Shown here in pieces: positions 19,322 through 31,658 of a DNA stretch of 33,345 bases. A program made the translations under genes and the position numbers. Positions within the stretch are counted from its first letter, which is position 1. Each line of letters starts with the position of its first letter. The notes below the pieces were generated by a model. The model was not told the DNA's origin. It was given only the letters and a program-made list of their open reading frames with translations, and ran no database searches. Origin of the DNA: Bacteroidales bacterium (GTDB lineage Bacteria; Bacteroidota; Bacteroidia; Bacteroidales; UBA932); the NCBI GenBank assembly GCA_017634595.1, contig JAGBNC010000034.1, positions 1-33,345 of the forward strand, read 5' to 3'.

Positions 19322-20299
19322 TTACCCAAGAAATGCTTTCTGCTCCAGCAGAATACGGCGCACGTCGCCGGCATCTACCTTGCGGGGAACGGTCCCTCCG
19401 CTCACTGCCAGGGCGGCGGCTATGCCTGCGGCATGTCCCATGGCCATGCAGGGAGGCATGACGCGCACCGCTCCTGCGGCATCGGAACTGGCGCTGATGG
19501 CGCGTCCGGCAACGATGAGCCCGTCGATATGCTGGGGCATGAGGCTGCGCAGCGGCAGTCCGTACCAGCGTCCGTTCTGGATGGTCTTGTATTCGGTAGT
19601 GTTGGCTCCGTTGCGGCCGTGTACGTCCACGGAGTTGGATGCGCAGAGTATGCTGTCGTCAGGCACTACGCCTTGAAGCAAGTCGTCGGCAGTGAGGAGA
19701 TATTCGCCCATCACGTGACGCGACTCCCTTATGCCAAGGGTGGAAGCGGAGCTCTTGATAGTGGCTTTTTCGCAGCCGGGTACGTATTTGTGGAAGAAAT
19801 TCATGAGTTCCTGCACCTGCCGGCGGCCTTCTTTCTCCGCGGCACTCAGGCTCTCGGTGCTGGTGGCATCCACTTTTGCAATGCGGGTGCAGTTCACTGC
19901 CCATTCGTCTTCGTGTACGCCCCTGTAGATGTTGACGCTCTTGCGGTTGATATCCCATTCGCCAGCTGCTTCAGCTTCTTCTACCCTCCAGTGGAGTGCC
20001 CTGTAGCTCACTCCGTTTACCTTTCGGAATTCGTGGAGGTGTGCCTGTACGTCGGCGGTAAGGCGCTGGCTGTCAACGTTGTTGATGTGGAAGAAGAGGG
20101 TGGCGGGCTGTACGGTGCCGAGTTCGGGATTGCCGAAGGTGCAGGGGACTCCCGCGCGAGCGGCAACGTCACCGTCGCCTGTAGCGTCTATGACCACTTT
20201 GGCGCCTATGCTTGCCAGTCCCTCGCGGCGCAGGACGCGTATCCCTGTGATCTTGTCGCCCTTGAGTATGGCGTCCACAAGAGAGGTGTGGAACATTAC
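19322..20299 (-). CDS. FAD-dependent oxidoreductase, C-terminal part after an in-frame TAG
   Basis: This is the distal part of the gene that starts at 20791. It is in the same reading frame as the N-terminal part and separated from it only by a TAG at 20300-20302. The next codons read VMFHTSLVDAI, which continues the family sequence without any gap, and the FAD-domain motif VVIDATGDGDVAARAG follows. The chain ends with the GLPLRSLMPQHIDGLIVAGRAISA and GHAAGIAAALAV blocks typical of FAD_oxidored proteins. An ATG at 20296 could restart translation, but the product would lack the dinucleotide-binding domain and signal peptide. No other defect is visible, so the mutation is recent, or the stop is read through, or it is a sequencing error. 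Confidence 0.85.
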   Translation of the reverse strand, partial: VMFHTSLVDAILKGDKITGIRVLRREGLASIGAKVVIDATGDGDVAARAGVPCTFGNPELGTVQPATLFFHINNVDSQRLTADVQAHLHEFRKVNGVSYRALHWRVEEAEAAGEWDINRKSVNIYRGVHEDEWAVNCTRIAKVDATSTESLSAAEKEGRRQVQELMNFFHKYVPGCEKATIKSSASTLGIRESRHVMGEYLLTADDLLQGVVPDDSILCASNSVDVHGRNGANTTEYKTIQNGRWYGLPLRSLMPQHIDGLIVAGRAISASSDAAGAVRVMPPCMAMGHAAGIAAALAVSGGTVPRKVDAGDVRRILLEQKAFLG

Positions 20300-20302
20300 C
20301 TA
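20300..20302 (-). other. In-frame amber (TAG) codon inside the FAD oxidoreductase gene
   Basis: The minus strand reads GAG GCC GGC GTG TAG GTA ATG TTC CAC. The codon takes the place of residue 164, where relatives usually have lysine or another ordinary residue; AAG to TAG is one base. TAG is used as a normal stop by rimM, the PCMD gene, susD and the second sulfatase in this window, so the genome has not reassigned TAG. Confidence 0.9.
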
Positions 20303-20791
20303 CACGCCGGCCTCGTCGCACATCTGGTCAAGGACGAACTTCATGATTTCGGGTTCGAAGGGGGTGAGATGGTCGTGCCCGGTTGTTATCCATGCGCTGA
20401 AGGGGGTGCCTGCACGTACTTCACGTGGGTGTATTGCTCCTCCGAGGGCTACCATCCTGTCCACTATTTCTTCGAATATGCCGCGGATTATCATCTGCTC
20501 TCCGGTGGCGTCGTAGCAGGTCATGAAAGGGGCGACCAGGCCCCTTGTAGCCATGCCTCCGAGGCAGTTGCCCTGCTCTACTATCAGGACTTGCATCCCG
20601 CAGCGTGCCGCGGCTATTGCGGCGCATACTCCTGCGGGGCCGCCCCCCACAACCAGCACGTCGGTGCTGCCGAGCTTGCTGTCCGGGTCCATGGAGGACA
20701 GGCAGGAGGTGGCAAGGCTGCCGGAAGCGCCCAGGAGCGCTCCGCTCGCTATCGCGGCTCCGCCGGTCTTAAGAAAGTCTCTTCTTTTCAT
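20300..20791 (-). CDS. FAD-dependent oxidoreductase, N-terminal part, Tat-exported, truncated by TAG
   Basis: The 163-residue part begins with a twin-arginine signal (KRRDFLKTGGAAIASG), so the protein would be folded with its cofactor in the cytoplasm and exported. The FAD-binding Rossmann motif is intact (VLVVGGGPAGVCAAIAAARCG, with GGGPAG at 49-54), followed by VEQGNCLGGMATRGLVAPF, characteristic of the FAD_oxidored family. Together with 19322-20299 the gene would encode about 488 residues, normal for the family. In sugar-utilisation loci such enzymes are suspected to oxidise carbohydrate hydroxyls. It starts one base after the stop of MBL lipoprotein 3 and precedes susC in the same operon. 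Alone this fragment would not be active. Confidence 0.87.
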   Translation of the reverse strand: MKRRDFLKTGGAAIASGALLGASGSLATSCLSSMDPDSKLGSTDVLVVGGGPAGVCAAIAAARCGMQVLIVEQGNCLGGMATRGLVAPFMTCYDATGEQMIIRGIFEEIVDRMVALGGAIHPREVRAGTPFSAWITTGHDHLTPFEPEIMKFVLDQMCDEAGV

Positions 20792-20792
20792 A

Positions 20793-22151
20793 TCAGATGT
20801 TGTTACTTGCTACTAACGGCCGGGTGTCTCCGGTGCCCGTAGCCACTCTCGGCTCCGTAAGAGGGAGGGGCCCACGAAGTGGGAGGGGTCGCGAAGCGAC
20901 GGCAACCGGAGACACCCGGCCGTCAGTAGCAGAAAAAGGACCCCAAATACCTGTGATACGGTATGAGGGGTCGGTGTCGTCAAGAGTATATATCGTATAT
21001 GTCTTGCCGCCATTGGCAACGCGGATGACAATATGGCCGGAAGTAGAAGCGAAACGATCAAGATAGTCTCTTACAATATTGTCCTTATGCAGATTGGTAA
21101 GGAACACCTTGCAGTCGGGATTGGCAGCGTAGATATTGTCAAGGGTCTCCGGATTGGGCTGGACATCGCGCCAGACATGTGCCACTACAGCATCGGGACG
21201 AAGGACGTTCATGATCTCCGGTCCGTTGGCTCCCTTGGTGCAGTGGTGGCTGGCCTTCATCACTTCCACCTTGTGGCAGAGCCCGCTCACCGGAGCTTCC
21301 ATGTCGAAGTAGTCGTGCAGATCGCGGTGCGCCCACTGCAAGTCGCCGCCGGCGAATATGTCAAAAGGCCCGTAGCTGAGTATGAATACAGTGCTCAGAG
21401 CGTTCTCTCCAGGGTAGGCCTTGGGGTCGCCGAGCGAGTCGAGCACAGCCTTCGGGGGCATGTTGGTGGTCCACTCGTCGCTGTCCGGCGCCGTGCGGAA
21501 GCGCCCGTTGGCCGCCAGATTGTGGACTTTGAAGTCTTTGACCTTGCCTCGCACCGGGACTATCTGCGTGTCGGAGCAGGGATCGAAGAACTCATACTTG
21601 GTGCCGTTGGCCTTGACCGACCAGTTGACGAAGCGGGCGAAGTTGGAGATGCTCTCCTCCCTTGCACAGTTGGAGCTCTTGACTTCGGTAGGATCGCCCC
21701 TGGTAATCAGGCGCTTGTACGGTATGGTCGATCCCACCTCGCATATACTTGACAGCAGGAACTTGCCCTCGGGATGAATCGGTAGGAACTTCTTGGCGTC
21801 TCCCATGTGGTCCGTATGATAGTGACTCAGCAAGAAGTAGTCGATAGAGTCGGCATGACCCTTTGGCGCAAAATGACGGATGTAATTGATGATAGCCTGC
21901 CCGGAACTCATGGTGCTGTCCGGCTTGGGCTCGGTGGGCATGTGCTTGTGCTTCTTGAGCAGCGAACCGGCGGCATCGACCAGCATGGTGGTGCCGTCAG
22001 GAAAGACATAGAACATGCTCTCGCCCCGTCCTGTATTGATGCAGTGTATATCCAAGGTGCCCTTTTTCCATGGGCGGAGAGACTGGCTTTCGGTGCACGA
22101 TACCAGTGCCAATGACGCCACAAGGGCGATAATCACGAAACGACGCATCAT
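20793..22151 (-). CDS. MBL-fold metallo-hydrolase lipoprotein (paralogue 3) with a repeat-derived C-terminal tail
   Basis: The 452-residue lipoprotein (cysteine 19, ALVSC) has the same architecture as the two downstream paralogues: LDIHCINTGRGESMFYVFPDG, metal site H110-x-H112-x-D114-H115 (SHYHTDHMGD), AGGDLQWAH, and KASHHCTKGANG. Family homology ends at IWGPFS, where paralogues 1 and 2 stop within a few residues. The remaining ~43 residues (proline-, arginine- and valine-rich) are translated from the palindromic element at 20808-20931, and the frame ends in a TGA one base before the FAD oxidoreductase ATG. The tail is therefore very probably acquired. Either ATG at 22151 or 22148 could be the start. 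It is the first gene after the sulfatase/GH27 fusion, with a 61-base gap that contains a -7-like element. Confidence 0.87.
   Translation of the reverse strand: MMRRFVIIALVASLALVSCTESQSLRPWKKGTLDIHCINTGRGESMFYVFPDGTTMLVDAAGSLLKKHKHMPTEPKPDSTMSSGQAIINYIRHFAPKGHADSIDYFLLSHYHTDHMGDAKKFLPIHPEGKFLLSSICEVGSTIPYKRLITRGDPTEVKSSNCAREESISNFARFVNWSVKANGTKYEFFDPCSDTQIVPVRGKVKDFKVHNLAANGRFRTAPDSDEWTTNMPPKAVLDSLGDPKAYPGENALSTVFILSYGPFDIFAGGDLQWAHRDLHDYFDMEAPVSGLCHKVEVMKASHHCTKGANGPEIMNVLRPDAVVAHVWRDVQPNPETLDNIYAANPDCKVFLTNLHKDNIVRDYLDRFASTSGHIVIRVANGGKTYTIYTLDDTDPSYRITGIWGPFSATDGRVSPVAVASRPLPLRGPLPLTEPRVATGTGDTRPLVASNNI
20808..20931. repeat. Palindromic multi-hairpin element, copy A, inside the 3' end of MBL gene 3
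   Basis: Outer arms 20808-20834 and 20905-20931 pair over 27 bases with one mismatch (a G-U pair in minus-strand RNA). Inside are three hairpins: AGCC/GGCT (20841-20844/20851-20854), CCCAC/GTGGG with loop GAA (20871-20875/20879-20883), and GTCGC/GCGAC with loop GAA (20888-20892/20896-20900). A conserved purine run, aagagggagggg (20859-20870), lies between the first and second hairpin. Copy B at 29986-30116 has the same core with compensating stem changes and unrelated outer arms. Confidence 0.85.
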
Positions 22152-29559: not shown

Positions 29560-29985
29560 ATGCAGCACGAAATAATTATCAAGGATTTGGCTGATCTTGG
29601 CAGGGCGGCCGTCGAGTTCCTCAAAGAGATTGGAAATAATAAACTGATTGCCTTCTACGCTCCGATGGGGGCGGGCAAAACTACGTTTACTACGGCAATA
29701 TGCAAGTTGCTGGGTGTACGTGAAGACGCTGTCAGTTCGCCCACTTTCGCTATCGTCAACGAGTACAAGTCGGCCGATGGCGAGCCTGTATATCACTTTG
29801 ATTTTTATCGAATTACTAAGGAGGCGGAGGCCCTTGATATCGGTCTCTACGAATATCTTGACAGCGGCGCCCTGTGCCTTATGGAGTGGCCTGAAAACAT
29901 TGAGAGCCTCCTTCCTGAAGAGACTCTCAAAGTAAGTATTTCTGTTGGCCTTGACGGCTCCCGCACCGTGTCCTGGTCCGACTGA
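29560..29985 (+). CDS. tsaE: tRNA threonylcarbamoyladenosine biosynthesis ATPase TsaE
   Basis: TsaE is the ATPase that drives turnover of the TsaB-TsaD complex making t6A at position 37 of ANN-decoding tRNAs. The 141-residue product has the Walker A motif APMGAGKT (34-41), the switch region SSPTFAIVNEY, the HFDFYRI motif and LMEWPENI. Length is normal. It has its own promoter in the gap after comM. Its TGA at 29983-29985 is immediately followed by palindromic element B, which extends to the stop codon of the convergent sulfatase gene. Confidence 0.95.
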   Translation: MQHEIIIKDLADLGRAAVEFLKEIGNNKLIAFYAPMGAGKTTFTTAICKLLGVREDAVSSPTFAIVNEYKSADGEPVYHFDFYRITKEAEALDIGLYEYLDSGALCLMEWPENIESLLPEETLKVSISVGLDGSRTVSWSD

Positions 29986-30116
29986 CCCCTTCCCGGCGTC
30001 CGGCTGATTCTGTTGCTGGACCGTGCCACCCTCGGCACCGGAAGAGGGAGGGGCCCGCTTGCGGGAAGGGCCGCGAAGCGGCGTCCAGCAACAGAATCAG
30101 CCGGACGCGGGAGGGG
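29986..30116. repeat. Palindromic multi-hairpin element, copy B, filling the gap between convergent genes
   Basis: Perfect 26-bp outer arms (29996-30021 and 30083-30108) are extended by CCCC...CCC/GGG...GGGG pairing to 29986 and 30116. The inner hairpins are GTGCC/GGCAC (30023-30027/30034-30038), CCCGC/GCGGG with loop TT (30054-30058/30061-30065), and GCCGC/GCGGC with loop GAA (30070-30074/30078-30082). The purine run aagagggagggg is at 30042-30053. The element begins at the first base after the tsaE stop and ends at the last base before the sulfatase stop. Confidence 0.88.
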
Positions 30117-31658
30117 CTATTCGGCAGCTTCGGGGAAGTTGATGTCTATATTGAACTTTTCAATATCGAATACAGGCTTCTCGTGACTCTCACGCACCAC
30201 CTGCCACATCTGCTCCACAATCTCGGGGTGCTCTGCCGCAACATTCATACTCTCGCGCGGGTCGGAGACAATATTGTACAACTCCATCTTGTTGTTGCCT
30301 TTGGCCGCTTTCTGAAGCAGGCCCTTCCATTCGCCGATACGCACTGCCACCCAGCCCTTTGCTCCGGGGAACTCCCAGTAGAGGTAAGGATGCTCCTGCT
30401 GCTTCTTAGGCTGGCCGCATATAATGGGCGCGAATGAAATACCGTCATTCTCAGGGGCTTGGACACCGGCAAGCTCAGCAAAAGTAGGCATGAGGTCGGC
30501 AAAGTATGCGACGTGCGAACTCTTGGCGGCCTTAAGCTTGTCACCCCAGGCCAGTACGAACGGCATCCTAATGCCGCCCTCGTGCAGGGAACTCTTGCCC
30601 CATCCGGCAGCACAACTGAAGGGGCCGCCGCTCTGGAAGTATTCCATAGGGGAGTTGCCGTTGTGAGCAGGCCCGTTGTCCGAAGTGACGATGAAGATGG
30701 TATTATCCCAGATTCCGAGTTCCTTGAGTTTGGCCACAAGTTTGCCCACCTGGGTGTCGATATGGGTTACCATGGCGGCGTAAGTGGCAAGTGGATAGCG
30801 GTTTGGCAGATACATGCCGCCGTCGGTGCAAGGCTTTTCGTCGCCGAGCTTCTCCACGTAGTACATAACTTCATCCTTCGGAGCCTGTACTGCGCTGTGG
30901 GGCACGGTCGTAGTCCACATGGCAAAGAAGGGGCCGCCTGCGTTGTCGGTGATGAACTTCTCGAGCTTGTCGTACATAAGGTCGCAGCTGTAGTACTTGC
31001 CGCCGTAGCGGTCGTAGCTTGCGGGATCGAGAGGATCAAGCCCTTCGGGGAGCGGTTCTCCCTGCATGACGGTCTCGTTGCCAGTCTCTATCTTGACATC
31101 GTTCTCCCACAGGTGGGTGGGGTAGTAGGAGTGAGCAAGGGCTTGACAATTAAAGCCGTAGAAGTAGTCGAAGCCCATCTTGTTGGGCGTGGAGTCGCTG
31201 CTCGGGAAACCGAGGCCCCATTTGCCCACCATCGCGGTCTTGTAGCCCGCCTCCTGCATCATTTTGGCTATGGTCGGCGTGCCTGCGAGCATGGGGAACT
31301 GCCCTTCGTTGGTGTCGTCCAGGAACAATTCGTTCCACCCGCTGGCAGAATGCTGGGAGTGCTCTTCGTTGTGACGTATCTGGCTGTGTCCCATGTGTTT
31401 ACCTGTCATGATACAGCAGCGTGACGGAGCCGACAGGGGAGCTGCGGAGTACATGTCTGTAAAGAGTATGCCGTGGCTGGCCAGTGCATCGATGTTGGGG
31501 GTCTCAATCTTGGTCTGTCCATAGCAGCCCAGGTCGCCGTAGCCGAGGTCATCGAACATCAAATAGATGATATTTGGCTTTTCTGGAGCTTTGTTGGCGC
31601 CTGTGCATCCGCAGGCAGCAGCCGCAGCGGCCGCGAGCAATAGTTTGTTGGTCTTCAT
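30117..31658 (-). CDS. Serine-type S1 sulfatase, lipoprotein
   Basis: The 513-residue protein is a paralogue of the sulfatase half of the fusion at 22213-25434. It has a lipoprotein-type signal with cysteine 16 (AAAAACGCTG), metal ligands in YLMFDDLGYGDLGCYGQ and VTSDNGPAHNG, and the maturation motif S76-A-P-S-R followed by CIMTG, so formylglycine must be made from serine by an anaerobic radical-SAM maturase, which is not in the window. The domain arrangement ends after DINFPEAAE, without any GH27 part. It would remove sulfate esters from carbohydrates in the periplasm or at the surface. It is divergent from the symporter at 31775. The stop is TAG, directly next to palindromic element B. Confidence 0.95.
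   Translation of the reverse strand: MKTNKLLLAAAAAAACGCTGANKAPEKPNIIYLMFDDLGYGDLGCYGQTKIETPNIDALASHGILFTDMYSAAPLSAPSRCCIMTGKHMGHSQIRHNEEHSQHSASGWNELFLDDTNEGQFPMLAGTPTIAKMMQEAGYKTAMVGKWGLGFPSSDSTPNKMGFDYFYGFNCQALAHSYYPTHLWENDVKIETGNETVMQGEPLPEGLDPLDPASYDRYGGKYYSCDLMYDKLEKFITDNAGGPFFAMWTTTVPHSAVQAPKDEVMYYVEKLGDEKPCTDGGMYLPNRYPLATYAAMVTHIDTQVGKLVAKLKELGIWDNTIFIVTSDNGPAHNGNSPMEYFQSGGPFSCAAGWGKSSLHEGGIRMPFVLAWGDKLKAAKSSHVAYFADLMPTFAELAGVQAPENDGISFAPIICGQPKKQQEHPYLYWEFPGAKGWVAVRIGEWKGLLQKAAKGNNKMELYNIVSDPRESMNVAAEHPEIVEQMWQVVRESHEKPVFDIEKFNIDINFPEAAE

Follow-up and report, generated by a model that had tools for sequence, protein, structure and literature searches.

Pseudoknotted palindromic elements of Bacteroidales as candidate non-autonomous mobile elements associated with Y1 transposase genes

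Introduction

Rickettsia palindromic elements (RPE) are palindromes of about 150 bp that lie in frame within unrelated protein genes and form several families per genome (excerpts of PMC10969869 and PMC3733652). REP and REPIN sequences are stem-loop units scattered at gene ends, with some inside genes, and are thought to be mobilised in trans by a Y1 HUH transposase, RAYT or TnpA-REP (excerpts of PMC3733652 and PMC6006769); a mostly Bacteroidetes subclass (2.6) is described as flanked by atypical secondary structures (excerpts of PMC6006769). CGTC-tagged repeats, among them two RPE families, are found in Bacteroidetes and other phyla and are presented as lacking a dedicated transposase and as carrying the tag at the unpaired end of a small stem-loop (excerpts of PMC3733652).

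The window analysed here is a 33,345-nt stretch of a Bacteroidales genome (GCA_017634595.1, contig JAGBNC010000034.1). A preliminary description had noted two multi-hairpin palindromes in it, which it read either as a non-autonomous mobile element moving as folded single-stranded DNA or as a structured RNA placed at gene ends. The palindrome family to which they belong is close to RPE in habit and to REP/RAYT in its probable enzymology, with two defining REP features missing. A literature search, covering neither bioRxiv nor most subscription papers, found no description of such an element in Bacteroidales.

Results

Both elements lie at the coordinates first proposed for them (Table 1) and are four-stem palindromes, with DNA folding z scores of −7.7 to −9.5 on either strand and 0 of 200 shuffles folding equally well. 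They are the two longest of four inverted-repeat pairs in the window (I1, 36 nt at 89%; I2, 29 nt at 97%) when arms of at least 15 nt with partners within 200 nt are sought; the remaining two are 16 nt at 81 to 88%. The sequence AAGAGGGAGGGGCCC occurs exactly twice in the window. On the core strand, which is the window minus strand, copies A and B both read arm, P4, CCCTCCC or CCTTCCC, P3, GGGCCCCTCCCTCTT, P2, arm. All the stem pairs said to differ between the copies by paired changes are present (AGCC/GGCT versus GTGCC/GGCAC, CCCAC/GTGGG versus CCCGC/GCGGG, and GTCGC/GCGAC versus GCCGC/GCGGC). The P2 loop of copy A, previously given as ACCCTC, is ACTCTC, and this single base change breaks one pair with the predicted pseudoknot partner GAGGG at 20861 to 20865.

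Table 1. Coordinates of the two elements and neighbouring genes in the window
Feature	Coordinates	Strand	Evidence or remark
Element copy A, family 1, entire palindrome	20808..20931	- (core-strand orientation)	Covariance-model match G000:C34:20838-20900(-), 88.4 bits
Copy A outer arm P1	20808..20837	.	Pairs with 20901-20931
Copy A hairpin P2, AGCC - ACTCTC - GGCT	20841..20854	+	
Copy A conserved AAGAGGGAGGGG (= CCCCTCCCTCTT on core strand)	20859..20870	+	
Copy A hairpin P3, CCCAC GAA GTGGG	20871..20883	+	Sequence varies among other copies
Copy A hairpin P4, GTCGC GAA GCGAC	20888..20900	+	GNA triloop on plus strand
Copy A outer arm P1'	20901..20931	.	
Element copy B, family 1	29986..30116	-	Covariance-model match G000:C34:30022-30082(-), 87.9 bits
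Copy B core: P2, AAGAGGGAGGGG (30042-30053), P3 (30054-30065), P4 (30070-30082)	30022..30082	-	
Open frame, 452 aa, crosses copy A at the frame's 3' end	20793..22151	-	Weak phmmer match to phosphorylcholine esterase CbpE, E 8.7e-5
tsaE (tRNA t6A synthesis), stop codon abuts copy B	29560..29985	+	PF02367, E 1.2e-36; TsaE chains in PDB
Sulfatase gene, stop codon abuts copy B's other edge	30117..31658	-	PF00884

The suggested location at gene ends suits copy B, which fills the entire gap between the convergent tsaE and sulfatase genes; copy A is more than a gene-end element, since a reading frame crosses it. A Pfam scan of that 452-aa frame returned no match. The FAD_oxidored gene adjoining it is split into two open frames (window 19322-20791, minus strand), with 20300-20791 corresponding to profile positions 1-103 and 19322-20296 to positions 106-416.

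Further copies emerged from the same genome. The 12-mer CCCCTCCCNCTT occurs 12 times there, at 10 elements, and the reversed pattern matches once. Covariance modelling, proposed in the preliminary description as a check, revealed both additional copies and sister families: a model built from the cores of 10 own-genome elements gave 31 matches at E≤1 in that genome, 12 of them strong (73.5 to 90.6 bits). The next match (L218, G000:C19:209773; 41.7 bits) is a truncated family-1 copy, broken off in box 2 and without P2. The 11 matches that follow were sorted by eye into three sister families of 5, 4, and 2 copies, two of these copies, L228 and L229, being at E 0.011 and 0.05; the reading covered the first 24 of the 31 matches. 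Elements of the superfamily measure about 110 to 150 nt, and the P1 stem encloses P2, P3, and, in most copies, P4. A long form of P3 with several tens of extra bases is seen at L049, L063, L081, L116, L134, L140, L250, and L258. Two elements share a stretch, several pairs being of different families, at L061, L080, L094, L128, L131, L140, L146, L158, and L258.

Across the genus, which may be Candidatus Cryptobacteroides, a pattern for family 1 (pattern 1) matched 43 of 101 genomes, a looser pattern 2 that recovers mostly sister families matched 62, and either one matched 66; the two patterns' counts may overlap for a few copies, and the reversed-pattern controls for both gave 0 in every listed row. 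Among 198 genomes drawn from across the order, pattern 1 was confined to the own genome and to a single sister genus in its family. A scan of genome collections yielded at least 120 matching stretches, and the 80 titles listed were all from Bacteroidales or Bacteroidia, mostly rumen or gut MAGs. There was no match to the exact pattern 1 in viral contigs, nor any blastn match to the 63-nt core of copy A (family 1) in plasmids and phages. In genomes G098, G065, G040, and G034, P3 is much alike within each genome but differs from one genome to the next, as recent amplification or concerted evolution would leave it.

The fold was analysed in 147 distinct family-1 copies, those within about 150 nt of locus ends being left out. 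At the base of P2, a 2-bp step whose bases are free in the search pattern is complementary in 146 of the 147 copies with nine different dinucleotides, against a mean of 48.5 and a maximum of 66 in shuffles that, like the real copies, were permitted three offsets. In a superfamily set of 190 copies, 187 were parsed, and in 184 of these the two bases that follow box 2 are complementary to the two that open the P2 loop; the unparsed ones are L010 (window copy A), L131, and L246. The 148 TC/GA copies weigh little in this count because the search pattern fixes those bases. Outside family 1, where the search left the pseudoknot bases free, 36 of 39 copies pair and 3 do not (shuffle maximum, 25), by means of GT/AC (21 copies), GC/GC (4), AC/GT (4), AT/AT (4), and CC/GG (3). 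These shuffle figures are not probabilities, since related copies are not independent. The stem covariation first seen between copies A and B is thus corroborated and extended to the pseudoknot and the 2-bp step, and together with the loop evidence described below these features support a conserved folded form. They are stronger evidence for a kept fold than the paired changes in the outer arms, on which the preliminary description had also drawn; hairpin-templated repair can produce such arm changes, which alone do not prove selection on the fold.

P4 was parsed in 126 copies (21 unparsed); in 102 of them its loop, read along the window plus strand, is G-N-A with a closing C-G pair, as GAA (55), GCA (26), GGA (15), or GTA (6). 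These loops are of the GCGNAGC mini-hairpin type, which is very stable in DNA. Arm mismatches in 146 copies, counted with approximate arm boundaries and with related copies repeating identical mismatches, comprise 146 C.T versus 38 A.G on the core strand, i.e., G.A is commoner on the other strand. The GNA loops and this asymmetry therefore favour the plus-strand folded form, be it DNA or RNA. G.T and A.C arm mismatches show no strand bias (72 versus 94, p 0.10), which counts against RNA-strand selection on the arms. Orientation is likewise unbiased with respect to local GC skew (50/106), and a replication-strand bias was rejected on this measure. Rfam 15 gave no match in the window at the gathering score, and a search of five copies at E≤5 returned sub-threshold matches alone, mostly eukaryotic.

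As claimed at the outset for A and B, outer arms are complementary within a copy and unrelated between copies: in the 10 aligned own-genome copies they span 22 to 35 nt, are perfect in 8, and share no sequence likeness. Similar flanks on both sides were found in 36 copy pairs, 26 of which, including every pairing among five trmB and four ribF copies, have arms long enough for comparison. Over 646 arm positions in these 26 pairs, 309 are the same, 293 have changed on both sides and still pair, and 44 are unpaired in one copy; the 293 are inflated because the comparison is ungapped and indels add to the count, and the 44 are biased down because arms were chosen as the best inverted repeats. In many pairs the arms have changed more than the flanks, as in L142/L083 (flanks 88 to 89% identical, 15 of 25 arm pairs kept) and L098/L109 (87 to 89%, 15 of 31). 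They are better kept than the flanks in L117/L128 (80 to 83%, 24 of 26); in L042/L062, 24 of 25 arm pairs are kept with flanks at 96 to 97%. To judge from these alignments, the both-side changes fit repair in which one arm serves to rewrite its partner; alone, they would not establish selection. At aroB, the sole gene in which an empty site was examined, a target-duplication origin of the arms was rejected, since the empty gene leaves no space for either of them.

More than half of the family-1 copies (82 of 147) lie within open frames that cross them, in near-equal orientations (42 and 40, the longest frame being taken). By a greedy gene model, 80 copies fall within an ORF and 3 at edges, and the others lie between genes that are tandem in 40 cases, convergent in 15, and divergent in 9. 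Pfam scanning of 79 of the 82 crossing frames gave a domain in 55 and none in 24; 54 copies in frames with a Pfam domain divide into 29 and 25 by orientation. Some of the crossing frames must be spurious, and there are cases in which the element sits next to the domain instead of inside it. Housekeeping genes are often among those that carry an element in frame. The sole empty-site comparison concerns aroB, where the filled gene exceeds two empty relatives (L178 and L179) by 39 codons and is joined in frame. By eye, aroB, truA, truB, and ribF carry elements at the same site in opposite orientations in different species. Many intergenic copies stand near stop codons. Among 176 approaches of a gene to an element, 97 genes end at or before the element edge, 61 cross, and 18 end inside; nine of the latter are the second strand of copies lying in frame on the other strand, and of the other nine, eight end within 30 nt of the edge and one (L152) 78 nt in. 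No clear case of out-of-frame gene interruption was found among the 176 approaches, and no autonomous version with an internal gene among the 147 copies. Box 1 occurs within 200 nt in all of these copies but L073 and L090, which carry a near-box.

The 55 Pfam matches of element-bearing frames fall into 33 families, or 32 once NAD-GH (L143), presumably a shadow frame, is set aside. RNA modification or processing accounts for 14 of the 32 (25 of 54 copies): RsmH, KsgA, a THUMP-like protein, RNase R, an RlmI-like protein, methylthiotransferase, TrmB, TruB, TruA, an RluA-like protein, RsmG, TilS, QueH, and SpoU, where enzyme names beyond the Pfam label are interpretation and the assignment of THUMP-like, methylthiotransferase, and RNase R to this class is debatable. 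Control ORFs (30 picked at random from 102 non-element ORFs of the same loci, 21 with a Pfam match) gave 1 RNA-modifying family, MnmA, among 20 distinct ones (Fisher p 0.004 versus 14/32). Such a functional bias has precedent, since many REPs inside genes sit in replication and repair genes (excerpts of PMC3733652). Tolerance of inserts in dispensable enzymes would be the plain explanation for it. One open frame (L038 2-1012, minus strand) combines a QueH domain, an element, and a tyrosine-recombinase-family match.

The preliminary description had advised looking for a genome-encoded Y1/RAYT enzyme that tracks copy number. Matches to PF01797 (Y1_Tnp) at E≤1e-3 were found in 78 of the 101 genus genomes (69 above the curated cut-off), three unlisted negatives in this tally being assigned by elimination. 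Family 1 is present in 42 of the 78 PF01797-bearing genomes versus 1 of the other 23 (p 9e-6), and the superfamily in 60 of 78 versus 6 of 23 (p 2.5e-5), both values ignoring the kinship of genomes; 42 of the 43 family-1 genomes carry a PF01797 match at this threshold. Neither control profile showed an association, be it RVT_1 (family 1, p 0.83; superfamily, p 0.18) or DDE_Tnp_1 (p 0.84 and 1.0). Proteins classed as RAYT-like at E≤1e-20 occur in 58 of the PF01797-bearing genomes and in no PF01797-negative one, and this subfamily is associated with family 1 more weakly than PF01797 is (34/58 versus 9/43, p 2e-4). Presence of the gene thus tracks presence of the element, whereas copy numbers correlate weakly among Y1-bearing genomes (Spearman 0.21, p 0.06). 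Genome G014 (70% complete) is an exception to the association, with 16 pattern matches and no Y1 match; G027 and G011, with 23 and 18 pattern matches, have no RAYT-like match at 1e-20 yet have Pfam Y1 matches.

No RAYT gene had been visible to the earlier reader, and the own genome does encode RAYT-like genes elsewhere, on contigs C20 and C9. The open frame at C20:10114-10947, whose match covers query residues 56-333, was missed by Pfam; the genome's Pfam Y1 match is the broken gene at C9, below the curated cut-off. No element core was found at 12 Y1 loci and L013, and 30 RAYT-like loci (about 110 kb) held one element copy, at 1 of the 30, near the rough chance expectation. Conversely, 915 kb of element loci contained four Y1-like matches, one of them weak, with about one expected by rough estimate. 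Placement of the element beside Y1 genes was rejected as not beyond estimated chance. Two RAYT-like genes (L081 211-1224 and L156 5983-6936) are neighbours of element-bearing truB and ksgA, at distances of about 100 and 190 nt. By eye, in 4 of 8 flanks inspected (L260, L262, L271, and L272) the RAYT-like gene has much the same short hairpin to its left and right; these hairpins differ from gene to gene and may be target duplications or ends that belong to the transposase gene itself.

Discussion

We interpret these elements as non-autonomous mobile palindromes of one Bacteroidales family that are read as a folded single strand, with RAYT-like Y1 transposases probably mobilising them in trans, a reading that the comparisons made here place at somewhat better than even odds (about 0.55). 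The idea of a non-autonomous element moving as folded single-stranded DNA, one of the two first put forward, is the best supported, with further copies, covarying stems, and Y1 tracking in its favour. Mobility is backed by filled aroB being 39 codons longer than its empty relatives, and a Y1 enzyme by PF01797 presence tracking the element while RVT_1 and DDE_Tnp_1 stay flat. When the locus is single-stranded, the strand with the GNA triloop (window plus) would fold. A RAYT-like transposase of the Y1 (HUH) type, encoded at another locus, would recognise the core in its folded form, and not the sequence of the arms, and would copy or move the element. Surviving insertions would be mostly those near stop codons or in frame within proteins. 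After insertion the arms would drift yet stay self-complementary, probably through one arm templating the repair of the other, and the core may flip.

The Y1 link might instead be phylogenetic, with the palindrome moved by other means such as an unknown recombinase, a reverse transcriptase, or template switching in replication. The lack of physical linkage between element and Y1 genes agrees with this, as do the 16 pattern matches of Y1-free G014; we nevertheless hold it unlikely, given that Y1 tracks the element and the two families compared with it do not. Rather less probable still is the other reading first put forward, a structured RNA at gene ends, here meaning one that the host keeps and that acts in the transcript as a terminator, stability, or feedback element, for instance in genes of RNA-modifying enzymes. 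Conservation of the core and pseudoknot while the arms drift would be expected of such an RNA, and the many intergenic copies near stop codons and the 14 of 32 families devoted to RNA modification or processing (1 of 20 in the control) point the same way. It is less supported because 82 of 147 copies lie in crossing frames in both orientations (42 and 40), and it sits poorly with the opposite orientations seen by eye at the same aroB, truA, truB, and ribF sites, with arm G.T and A.C mismatches free of RNA-strand bias, and with the Rfam results, which were no gathering-score match in the window and sub-threshold matches alone for five copies.

Two further explanations were weighed. Neutral palindromes, whose paired changes would come solely from hairpin-templated repair and whose folded form would be under no selection, could account for arms that are often perfectly complementary (8 of 10 in the own genome) yet unrelated between copies, and arm pairs changing together at many sites are the signature of one arm being copied onto the other. 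For the core this explanation is disfavoured, since complementary pseudoknot bases in several families, together with the GNA loop and the boxes that are conserved, exceed what simple palindromes would show, and we regard it as improbable overall. That the elements are ordinary bidirectional terminators alike by chance, an outcome that the preliminary description had named as one that would overturn its view, seems very improbable indeed: copy B does lie between convergent genes, like 15 of 147 copies, but the simple gene model puts 80 of the 147 within an ORF, and the conserved core with its pseudoknot recurs in sister families.

Set beside described systems, the mobile palindromes proposed here combine traits of several. 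In RPE, the arms are common to the copies of a family, whereas those of the present elements are unrelated between copies of one family. As with RPE, in-frame palindromes are found within protein genes (82 of 147 in crossing frames), and several families coexist in one genome. Compared by description rather than by sequence, and as far as the excerpts of the RPE reports go, the two differ in lineage and in the hairpins and covarying pseudoknot of the element core. Y1 presence tracks the element and a Y1 transposase is encoded in the same genome, as for REP/RAYT; unlike REP, the element has no GTAG tag (GTAG is not invariant in the 10 aligned cores, and the unpaired GTAG/CGTC foot of the REP hairpin is absent), its copies do not flank Y1 genes, and its arms are hypervariable. 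Its multi-stem pseudoknotted fold also contrasts with the single 21- to 65-nt REP hairpin of the excerpted accounts. CGTC stands at the foot of P4 in eight of the 10 aligned own copies, in likeness to CGTC repeats, whose excerpted description differs in that here GTC is paired inside P4, the C falls in the arm, and the palindrome is larger and multi-hairpin. The elements further resemble MITEs and enterobacterial RU-type repeats in being short, non-autonomous, and located both within and between genes. MITEs have terminal repeats shared with a parent transposon; here, in contrast, the termini differ in all 10 own copies compared, no parent was found, and no gene lies inside any of the 147 copies.

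It is possible, and we advance it tentatively as well short of an even chance, that the elements represent a new class of transposable element. Their transposase would read the shape of single-stranded DNA only (multi-way junction, GNA mini-hairpins, and pseudoknot), the arms would be freely rewritten by hairpin-templated copying so that no termini are fixed, and insertion in genes of RNA-modifying enzymes would be favoured or even beneficial.

A general warning follows for the reading of such loci, namely that paired changes in arms are alone no proof of an RNA. Many copies that have kept their shape, and not their arm sequence, amount to a natural experiment, with which questions also raised by REP, CGTC, and RPE elements become testable: what recognises them, how they are tolerated in coding sequence, and how palindromes are maintained. 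For the Bacteroidales themselves, these data suggest that some proteins, including tRNA and rRNA modification enzymes, carry inserts of ∼40 residues of mobile-element origin.
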